NCBI GenBank assembly: GCA_002359495.1
Contig: DENB01000023.1
Coordinates: 1 to 40,606 of the forward strand
Source of the DNA: Enterobacteriaceae bacterium UBA2655
GTDB taxonomy: Bacteria; Pseudomonadota; Gammaproteobacteria; Enterobacterales; Enterobacteriaceae
Direction of reading: 5' to 3'
Length of the DNA: 40,606 nt
Numbering within the stretch: position 1 is the first letter of the stretch; each line of letters opens with the position of its first letter. A model generated the notes under the pieces. That model saw nothing but the letters and a program-made list of their open reading frames with translations, had not been told where the DNA came from and made no database searches. Both the position numbers and the translations under genes were made by a program. Shown one piece after another: positions 8,016-24,084 of the stretch.

Positions 8016-9782
8016 ATGAGCGGTGCAAGCAGAACGCTGAAGGTGAAAAAACAGGAAGATAAAGCCAGCTTTGTAAGCTGGCGTTTTGCGTTGCTGTGCG
8101 GCTGTATTCTACTGGCGCTCTGCGGTTTGCTCTCGCGCGTCGCCTGGCTGCAGGTGATCAAGCCGGACAAACTGGTGAAAGAGGGCGACCTGCGTTCGCT
8201 GCGCGTTCAGGCGATTCCTACCGCGCGCGGCATGATCAGCGACCGCGCCGGCCGACCGCTGGCGGTGAGCGTGCCGGTCAACGCCATCTGGGCCGATCCC
8301 AAAGAGCTGCACGAGCATGGCGGCGTGACGCTCGACAGCCGTTGGAAAGCGCTCGCCGACGCGCTCTCGGTGCCTCTCGATCAGCTGGCGGCGCGCGTGA
8401 ACGCTAATCCAAAGGGGCGTTTCGTCTATCTTGCCCGCCAGGTGAACCCGGCAATCGGCGACTACATCAAAAAGCTCAAGCTTCCCGGCATCTACCTGCG
8501 CGAAGAGTCGCGCCGTTATTATCCGGCCGGCCAGGTGACCTCTCACCTGATCGGCTTCACCAATATCGATGGCCAGGGCATCGAAGGCATCGAAAAAAGT
8601 TTCGATAAGTGGCTGACCGGACAGCCGGGCGAACGGACGGTGCGTAAAGACCGCTATGGCCGCGTTATCGAAGATATCTCTTCCGTCGACAGTCGCGCGG
8701 CGCACAACCTGACGCTCAGTATCGACGAACGTCTGCAGGCGCTGGTTTATCGCGAGCTCAATAATGCCGTGGCGTTCAACAAAGCGGAATCGGGCACCGC
8801 CGTGCTGGTGGATGTGAATACCGGCGAAGTGCTGGCGATGGCCAACAGCCCGGCCTACAACCCGAATAACCTCAGCGACACGCCGAAAGATGTGATGCGC
8901 AACCGCGCCATTACCGACATCTTCGAGCCGGGCTCCACCGTGAAGCCGATGGTGGTGATGGCCGCGCTGCAGCGCGGCGTGGTGAGAGAAAACAGCGTAC
9001 TGAATACTGTGCCGTACCGCGTCAATGGTCATGAGATCAAAGACGTGGCGCGCTACAACGAATTGACCCTTACCGGGGTGCTGCAGAAGTCGAGTAACGT
9101 CGGCGTTTCACGTTTGGCGTTAGCGATGCCGTCCTCAGCGTTAGTAGAAACTTACTCGCGTTTTGGACTGGGAAAGCCGACCAATTTGGGATTGGTTGGG
9201 GAAAGTAGTGGCTTATATCCGCAAAAACAACGGTGGTCTGACATAGAGAGGGCCACCTTCTCTTTCGGCTACGGGCTAATGGTAACGCCGTTACAGTTAG
9301 CGCGAGTCTATGCAACCATCGGCAGCTACGGCATCGCCCGTCCGCTGTCGATCACCAAAGTCGACCCGCCGGTCGCCGGCGAGCGCGTCTTCTCCGAGTC
9401 CCTGGTTAAAACCGTGGTGCATATGATGGAGAGCGTGGCGTTGCCCGGCGGCGGCGGCGTGAAGGCAGCTATTAAGGGTTACCGCATCGCCATTAAAACC
9501 GGCACCGCGAAAAAAGTCGGACCGGACGGGCGTTACGTAAATAAATATATCGCTTATACCGCAGGCGTCGCGCCTGCCAGCCATCCTCGTTTTGCCCTGG
9601 TGGTGGTGATTAACGATCCCCAGGCCGGGAAATATTATGGCGGCGCGGTTTCCGCGCCGGTGTTCGGCGCCATCATGGGCGGCGTATTGCGCACCATGAA
9701 CATCGAGCCCGACGCGCTGCCGGTCAATGAGAAAAACGAGTTGGTAATTAACACAAATGGGAATCCAAGTGACAGATCGTAA
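8016..9782 (+). CDS. ftsI: Septal peptidoglycan transpeptidase (PBP3)
   Basis: FtsI cross-links septal peptidoglycan and is the target of aztreonam and piperacillin. The 588 residues equal the E. coli protein. A cytoplasmic tail and one membrane anchor (about residues 24-45) precede the pedestal domain with the [13 protein letters not shown] motif. In the transpeptidase domain the catalytic Ser307 lies in GSTVK, SSN is at 359-361 and KTGTA is near 494. It sits 16 bases after ftsL. Codon use changes sharply over about 9096-9310: TTA, TTG, GTA, GGA, ATA, AGG, CTA and CGA replace the GC-ending codons used elsewhere. The protein stays conserved there, which suggests an RNA-level signal. Confidence 0.97.
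9195..9270 (+). ncRNA. ftsO: Candidate ORF-internal sponge RNA FtsO within ftsI
   Basis: E. coli makes an Hfq-bound RNA, FtsO, from inside ftsI that sponges the envelope-stress sRNA RybB. Here, in the same part of ftsI, AAAGTAGTGGC (9202-9212) can pair with the RybB 5' end GCCACTGCTTT over 11 positions with one G-U pair. Thirty-two bases on, AGAGAGGG/CCTTCTCT (9245-9252 with 9256-9263) forms an 8-bp hairpin with a CCA loop followed by TTT, a plausible 3' end. The stretch uses rare codons (ATA GAG AGG, TTA, CTA) that the protein does not require. The ends are approximate and RybB itself is outside the window. Confidence 0.6.
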
Positions 9783-12614: not shown

Positions 12615-13690
12615 TCTGGCTGGCCGAGCATCTGGTCACTCTGTATTCCGGCTTTAACGTCTTTTCCTATTTGACGTTTCGCGCCATCGTCAGCCTGCTG
12701 ACCGCGCTTTTCCTCTCGCTGTGGATGGGGCCGCGCCTGATCGCGTGGCTGCAAAAATTACAGATTGGCCAGGTGGTTCGTAACGACGGCCCGGAGTCGC
12801 ACTTCAGCAAGCGCGGCACGCCGACCATGGGCGGCATTATGATCCTCACCTCAATTACCGTGTCGGTGCTGATGTGGGCCTATCCTTCCAATCCTTACGT
12901 CTGGTGCGTGCTGGTGGTGCTGGTCGGCTTCGGCATCATCGGGTTTGTGGACGATTACCGCAAAGTGGTGCGTAAAGACACCAAAGGGCTGATTGCGCGC
13001 TGGAAATATTTCTGGATGTCGGTGATCTCCCTCGGCGTGGCGTTTGCGCTTTTTGTCGCCGGTAAAGGGACGCCCGCCACGCAGCTGGTGGTGCCGTTCT
13101 TTAAAGACATTATGCCGCAGCTCGGGCTGTTCTATGTGCTGCTGGCTTACTTCGTGATTGTCGGCACCGGCAACGCGGTCAACCTGACCGACGGCCTTGA
13201 CGGCCTGGCGATCATGCCGACGGTGTTTGTCGCGGCGGGCTTCGCGCTGGTCGCCTGGGCGACGGGCAACGTGGTGTTCGCGGAATATCTGCATATTCCC
13301 TATCTGCGTCATGCCGGCGAGCTGGTGATCGTCTGTACCGCCATCGTGGGCGCCGGACTTGGCTTTCTCTGGTTCAACACCTACCCGGCGCAGGTCTTTA
13401 TGGGCGACGTGGGTTCGCTGGCGCTGGGCGGCGCACTGGGCACTATCGCGGTGCTGCTGCGTCAGGAGTTTTTGCTGGTGATCATGGGCGGCGTGTTTGT
13501 CGTCGAGACGCTGTCGGTGATCCTGCAGGTGGGATCGTTCAAGCTGCGCGGCCAGCGCATCTTCCGTATGGCGCCGATCCATCACCACTATGAATTAAAA
13601 GGCTGGCCGGAGCCGCGCGTCATTGTGCGCTTCTGGATTATTTCGCTGATGCTGGTGCTGATTGGCCTGGCAACGCTGAAGGTACGTTAA
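12608..13690 (+). CDS. mraY: Phospho-MurNAc-pentapeptide transferase (lipid I synthase)
   Basis: MraY moves phospho-MurNAc-pentapeptide from UDP to undecaprenyl phosphate on the inner face of the cytoplasmic membrane, making lipid I. It has 360 residues, equal to E. coli, and about ten hydrophobic membrane segments. The catalytic Asp motif FVDDYRK, the [11 protein letters not shown] motif, the [11 protein letters not shown] motif and the [15 protein letters not shown] histidine motif near the C-terminus ([13 protein letters not shown]) are all present. AGGAGAAAGGAAC precedes the ATG inside murF. murD follows two bases after the stop. Confidence 0.97.
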
Positions 13691-23166: not shown

Positions 23167-24084
23167 ATGATCAAACAAAGGACATTAAAACGTATTGTTC
23201 AGGCGACTGGCGTCGGTTTGCATACCGGCAAAAAAGTCACCCTGACGTTACGCCCTGCGCCGGCCAATACCGGGGTCATCTATCGTCGCACTGACTTGAA
23301 TCCACCGGTAGACTTTCCGGCTGATGCAAAATACGTGCGCGACACCATGCTGAGTACCTGCCTGGTGAACGATGAAGGCGTGCGTATTTCTACCGTTGAG
23401 CACCTTAACGCCGCGCTGGCGGGCCTGGGCATCGACAACATTATTGTTGAAGTCGATGCGCCGGAAATCCCGATCATGGACGGTAGTGCTGCGCCTTTCA
23501 TCTATCTGTTGATGGATGGCGGTATCGATGAGCTGAACAGCGCGAAAAAATTCGTGCGCGTGAAGCAAACAGTGCGTGTTGAAGATGGCGATAAGTGGGC
23601 CGAAATTAGACCGTTTAACGGTTTCTCGCTCGATTTTACTATCGACTTTAAACACCCGGCGATCGATGCCAGCTCGCAGCGTTACAAAATGAACTTCTCG
23701 GCTGAGGCCTTTATGCGCCAAATCAGCCGTGCGCGTACCTTCGGCTTTATGCGCGAAATCGAATATCTGCAGTCTCGTGGCCTGTGCCTGGGCGGTAGTC
23801 TTGATTGCGCCATCGTGGTTGATGATTTCCGCGTACTGAATGAAGAAGGTCTGCGTTTCGAGGATGAGTTCGTTCGTCACAAAATGCTGGACGCTATCGG
23901 CGATCTGTTTATGTGTGGTCACAACATTATCGGCGCGTTTACCGCCTTTAAATCCGGCCATGCGTTAAACAATAAACTGCTGCAGGCGGTGCTGGCGAAA
24001 CAGGAAGCCTGGGAATGGGCGACCTTCGAAGACGAAGCTGAACTGCCGTTGGCATTCAAAGCCCCGAATCTGGTTCTGGCATAA
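23167..24084 (+). CDS. lpxC: UDP-3-O-acyl-GlcNAc deacetylase
   Basis: LpxC is the Zn2+ deacetylase that commits UDP-3-O-acyl-GlcNAc to lipid A synthesis. From the ATG at 23167 it has 305 residues, equal to E. coli, and begins [21 protein letters not shown]. Zinc ligands are in [10 protein letters not shown] (His79) and [11 protein letters not shown] (His238, Asp242). The open frame extends upstream to 23152, but the family start is MIKQ. The protein ends [11 protein letters not shown]; in E. coli the LA-x5-AVLA tail is the FtsH degron, so here the first degron alanine is replaced by Leu. It has a 101-base gap from ftsZ, where a separate promoter is likely (TATACT at 23127). Confidence 0.97.

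Follow-up and report, generated by a model that had tools for sequence, protein, structure and literature searches.

In Escherichia coli, the closest described system is FtsO (b4810; also ftsI-decRNA, with STnc475 as the Salmonella homologue). According to Adams et al. 2021 (PMC7815308), E. coli FtsO pairs with RybB, as judged by RIL-seq and by mutant and compensatory tests, and has CpxQ as its second RIL-seq partner; its ends probably arise from processing, and its wobble identity is 91% versus 67% over 18 species. Dar and Sorek 2018 (PMC6156199) described ftsI-decRNA as an RNA of 173 nt that is conserved in Enterobacteriaceae, carries stable stem-loops at both ends, and is predicted to bind ProQ. 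Other reports add that the half-life of FtsO is 12.8 min versus 0.6 min for ftsI (PMC10349824), that its 3' terminus lies at the same position in several enterobacteria (PMC10687069), that it is stable in Salmonella (PMC10998600), and, in a review, that it acts as a sponge (PMC12101431). The ftsI and RybB passages of PMC7213987 and PMC10907235 contain nothing about FtsO.

The FtsO system, the excised RNA, its role as a RybB sponge and the conservation of its wobble positions are already published, and the locus described here is the ordinary counterpart of the one in E. coli. The additions made here are the extent of the constrained unit, a paralogue control, and the repeated losses. The text of the FtsO literature seen (figures and supplements apart) makes no mention of constraint past the 3' end or of lineage losses; no claim of priority is made.

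The first-pass annotation of the window, i.e. the whole stretch of 40,606 nucleotides that was analysed, had proposed that an FtsO-like sponge is kept in this lineage. The host gene and the RNA are placed as follows.

8016..9782, plus strand: ftsI, the host gene, encoding the divisome peptidoglycan transpeptidase (588-aa ORF; alignment to annotated E. coli ftsI)
9088..9261, plus strand: FtsO, orthologue of the E. coli ncRNA ftsO, b4810 (gap-free mapping of the RefSeq annotation, 158/174 bases identical)

The RefSeq annotation of MG1655 places ncRNA ftsO at 92485-92658, which corresponds without gaps to 9088-9261 of the window. From the published length of 173 nt by itself, two positions relative to the conserved hairpins were possible, and it was the RefSeq annotation that decided between them. 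Base identity to E. coli is 158/174 in FtsO versus 820/1072 and 422/518 in the flanks, and wobble identity is 46/57 versus 165/325 and 75/140. No Rfam family reports FtsO at the gathering thresholds over the whole window, the single match being an ordinary leucine operon leader (RF00512, 89.2 bits) at 1487-1633 on the minus strand. That 9088-9261 represents FtsO, the RybB sponge which enterobacteria encode within ftsI, is highly probable, and by comparison with E. coli a working FtsO is very probably kept by this genome. The proposal is supported by the mapping of E. coli ftsO, by the match to the seed of the genome's own RybB, and by a local synonymous constraint.

9198..9212, plus strand: RybB-pairing site, consisting of the initially proposed 9202-9212 and four further bases (contiguous pairing with nt 1-15 of the RybB of the same genome, G-U at 4 of the 15 positions)

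The RybB of this genome starts with GCCACTGCTTTTCTTTGA, and its seed matches the site. The proposed element, AAAGTAGTGGC (9202-9212), pairs with nt 1-11 of this RybB with one G-U, just as had been claimed for the RybB seed. Only two 11-mers on both strands of the window are fully complementary to RybB nt 1-11, and the other one is on the minus strand. No other place on the two strands of the window pairs with RybB as strongly as 9198-9212 (-23.0 kcal/mol), the runner-up reaching -19.3. The predicted unpaired probability across 9202-9212 ranges from 0.10 to 0.92, and the RybB site is thus partly paired in the prediction.

A RybB seed was recognised for 89 large genomes; 79 of them have at least 8 contiguous pairs from RybB nt 1 and 41 at least 11, while 10 fall below 8. 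Chance complements to RybB elsewhere in the gene amount to 1.34 per ftsI for 8 nt and 0.01 for 11 nt, so that runs of 8 nt alone are weak proof of a site. The RybB seeds are nearly invariant, with 83 of the 91 recognised starting with GCCACTGCTTTTC. Covariation between site and seed was therefore not claimed; two cases read by eye are too few, namely G311, in which RybB carries A4G and pairing is preserved through a G-U, and G338, in which GCTACTACTTT and AAAGTAATGGC pair at 10/11 positions. In the reduced genomes G334 and G338 (RybB matches L312 and L310), the RybB 5' ends are altered and much of FtsO is still present in ftsI, which perhaps reflects decay of the regulator ahead of that of the sponge.

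The codon usage of ftsI changes over the same region. A switch to rare codons over some 70 codons had been noted by the first-pass annotation, and its listed codons (TTA, TTG, GTA, GGA, AGT, ATA, AGG, CTA and CGA) do make up 19 of the 71 codons at 9096-9308 versus 20 of 517 elsewhere (Fisher p 4e-9). Of all stretches of 71 codons in those genes of the window that were aligned to E. coli, the densest starts at 9093 with 20 listed codons, and the next, in hofC, has 14. The GC3 of ftsI is 0.55 within 9096-9308 and 0.74 outside. In the comparison with E. coli, synonymous identity over 7265 windows of 70 codons peaks at 9117-9324 (55/64 codons, z 6.05), the next gene being lpxC (3.76). FtsI is again first with 50-codon windows; with 30 codons lpxC is marginally above it (4.65 vs 4.61), and with 20 codons mraY is (4.25 vs 4.20).

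Two other genes of the window deserve mention in this respect. In the 5' part of lpxC (23170-23317), 40/50 synonymous codons match E. coli, the one species compared; with a z of 4.47, this window of 50 codons is surpassed by FtsO alone. The start region of lpxC is possibly under another RNA-level constraint. A short stretch of mraY (12617-12704) also has high synonymous identity to E. coli, with 19/20 codons at 12647-12704 (z 4.25).

The synonymous constraint was assessed across the family as pairwise codon identity above the amino-acid expectation.

9084..9327, plus strand: island of synonymous constraint (80 genomes; present in the all-genome repeat; absent in the paralogue)

In 80 family genomes, nearly all of different genera, synonymous conservation is raised from 9084 to about 9327, with 15-codon z values up to 8.8, and the other ftsI codons are mostly near zero; the exceptions include the last codons, at 3.0, and 8796-8870, at about 2. 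The RNA-level constraint originally placed at 9096-9310 is thereby borne out, in a slightly wider interval. A second, weaker peak, with 15-codon z up to 4.1, is seen at the 5' end of ftsI (8031-8120). The best conserved bases in these genomes are 9225-9257, not the RybB site.

Two groups were set apart by eye and are not in the 80-genome panel: 22 genomes judged reduced or divergent, of 0.5 to 3.3 Mb, and 11 judged to have lost the segment. Because such a selection raises the signal, the test was repeated with nothing omitted, using ftsI from 113 of the 132 genomes with an FtsI-like match. The z values for the blocks 9084-9155, 9180-9263 and 9264-9326 are then 6.2, 8.4 and 4.3, with flanks at -2.4 to -0.3. 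The corresponding values are 7.3, 9.0 and 5.0 in the 91 large genomes, 6.4, 10.2 and 7.1 in 81 named loci, and 1.3, 2.7 and 2.6 in the 22 reduced or divergent genomes. In all four sets, constraint is absent at 9156-9179 (z 0.1 to 1.5).

The predicted structure of the island comprises the following elements, for which pairing was scored over 147 distinct sequences (gapped and identical rows dropped, 159 to 147; lost and reduced genomes omitted beforehand).

9089..9127, plus strand: FtsO 5' stem-loop, predicted (pairing in 89% of cells, two-sided changes at 4 pairs)
9131..9168, plus strand: second stem-loop, predicted (pairing in 89% of cells, two-sided changes at 3 pairs)
9177..9199, plus strand: third stem-loop, predicted, in contact with the RybB site (pairing in 89% of cells, two-sided changes at 2 pairs)
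9232..9257, plus strand: stem A (9232-9239 with 9250-9257), alternative to hairpin B (99% pair, no two-sided changes)
9245..9263, plus strand: hairpin B, the FtsO 3' terminal stem-loop, proposed in the first pass (98% pair, 3 pairs with two-sided changes)
9275..9301, plus strand: hairpin D, past the annotated FtsO 3' end (90% pair, 2 pairs with two-sided changes)

Stem-loops are thus predicted and conserved at both termini of FtsO (9089-9127 and 9245-9263). The folding of 9084-9327 beats most shuffles (z -2.85, 3/200 as low). When the stems are slid along the alignment as controls, pairing is 7-55% for all stem-loops except 9245-9263, where it is 63-96%; the two-sided changes are therefore the better evidence for hairpin B. 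This hairpin, AGAGAGGG-CCA-CCTTCTCT (9245-9252/9256-9263), has 8 pairs, one of them G-U, and 3/8 pairs show two-sided changes. The hairpin with trailing T's that had been described at 9245-9265 is accordingly real and covarying as to its stem, but weak as to the T's, since the stem is followed by TTCGGC. Hairpin B is not recognisable as an intrinsic terminator, for there is no T run and a scan of 9000-9400 found no terminator-like site; nor was a sigma-70-type promoter found in that interval. Stem A is nearly invariant and mutually exclusive with hairpin B, and 124/147 rows allow all 8 pairs of both. In hairpin D, position 9281/9295 is G-A in all rows.

The enrichment of rare codons in 9096-9308 might also be read as a requirement of translation, i.e. 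a programmed slowing of the ribosome that helps FtsI to fold or to insert into the membrane, and not of RNA. The paralogue argues against this. In 20 genomes with a second ftsI-like gene, ftsI has z values of 8.0, 11.9 and 7.0 in the three blocks, but the paralogue, a member of the same protein family in the same genomes, is without constraint there (z -0.9, -2.0 and 0.1); these 20 paralogues were taken from the upper part of a longer list and all come from genomes that keep FtsO. The constraint is therefore not a property of the protein. Moreover, the segment has been lost in lineages with essentially the same protein, conserved slow codons are seen neither in these lineages nor in the paralogue, two-sided changes preserve the stems, and the RNA exists in E. 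coli. A translational origin is hence considered most improbable.

Long identical stretches across genera could in principle also be produced by recent recombination of the segment between genera, without selection. However, the identity of the core follows the divergence of the gene (correlation 0.60, 91 genomes), the segment is bounded alike across the family, and its changes preserve base pairs. Recombination is thus just as hard to credit, and selection on an RNA is the reading retained here.

The constraint continues across hairpin D, to about 65 nt beyond the 3' end annotated for ftsO. The block 9264-9326 has a z of 6.5 in the 80-genome panel, a value reached by 0/423 background blocks, and of -0.4 in the 11 genomes that have lost the segment. 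In the 91 large genomes, its conservation tracks that of the FtsO core, with a partial correlation of 0.72 given the gene background, versus 0.18 for a neighbouring control block. From this pattern hairpin D is read here as a part of the FtsO unit that is kept or lost together with FtsO, and its role is probably in the formation or protection of the 3' end. The comparison suggests that the conserved FtsO unit extends beyond its annotation and that several losses of it have occurred.

The losses were counted by pairing runs, because the classing of genomes as kept, partial or lost by synonymous identity is noisy, partly owing to a consensus that leans toward E. coli. The RybB site is missing in 14 of the 106 ingroup tips of a tree made with FastTree from the parts of ftsI that flank the segment, and parsimony requires 9 changes, outgroup included; where the RybB of a tip had not been fetched, the common seed was assumed. 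Of the 14 site-less tips, 12 have a RybB whose 5' end (GCCACTGCTTT) is intact; with fast filters, RybB was not found in G381 and G400. It follows from the 12 tips that the sponge is dispensable and that RybB does not depend on FtsO. For example, at a Tatumella locus (L081) the site is gone and the RybB seed of the same genome (L330) is intact. At three of the four Mixta-titled loci (L034, L036 and L038; not L028), the site stays and the rest is relaxed. An outgroup genome (G010) has a RybB match above the Rfam cut-off with an intact seed and no FtsO site, and RybB therefore looks older than, or independent of, FtsO.

The same losses bear on whether RybB is the main reason for which FtsO is kept. 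The RNA might instead be maintained mainly for another partner or role (CpxQ, ProQ binding and RNA stability are examples), and the RybB site would then be secondary. This would agree with the repeated loss of FtsO while RybB is intact, with a conservation of 9225-9257 at least as high as that of the RybB site, and with the published text naming CpxQ as the second E. coli RIL-seq partner (PMC7815308) and predicting ProQ binding (PMC6156199). On the other hand, the RybB site often persists where the rest is relaxed, 11 to 15 pairs being kept in G412, G373, G376 and G425, and CpxQ is without a good site: a duplex scan with E. coli CpxQ gives -18.6 to -21.4 kcal/mol with interrupted helices in both E. 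coli and the window. Such a shift of the main role away from RybB is considered unlikely, though less so than the translational and recombinational readings.

With RybB as the main partner, and by analogy with E. coli, FtsO in this species would be transcribed within ftsI, a stable structured fragment of about 9088-9261 would be cut from the ftsI mRNA by RNases, and Hfq would hold the excised RNA. FtsO would then present 9198-9212 to the RybB 5' seed, and the pairing would act as a sponge, lowering RybB and relieving its repression of outer-membrane-protein mRNAs. Hairpin D may help to form or protect the FtsO 3' end. A broader proposal, to which we give an even chance, is that selection maintains FtsO as a precursor of about 244 nt and not as the annotated 174-nt RNA, that hairpin D serves specifically as a signal for processing or protection and has come and gone with the sponge, and that several lineages dropped the unit and kept RybB, so that the division-envelope link would be an optional module.

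FtsO is a clear case of a protein message and a regulatory RNA message in one stretch of DNA. The natural losses, together with an unconstrained paralogue in the same genomes, are ready controls for the costs and gains of the RNA. The co-inherited hairpin D makes the production of FtsO, a question left open by Adams et al. (PMC7815308), testable by silent recoding.

In comparison with known systems, the present RNA is like E. coli FtsO in its place in ftsI, its RybB site, its terminal stem-loops and its wobble conservation. It differs by a C to T change at 9206, where a G-U replaces a G-C, and by the triplet at 9202-9204, which is AAA here and AAC in E. coli; owing to these differences, the pairing with RybB extends over 15 contiguous positions here and is interrupted after 8 in E. 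coli. RbsZ and the 3' ETS of leuZ, according to Adams et al. (PMC7815308), also pair with RybB and lower its activity, but they are encoded outside ftsI, unlike FtsO. The other ORF-internal RNAs of E. coli, aceK int, rlmD int, mglC int and ampG int, belong to other genes and have other partners.
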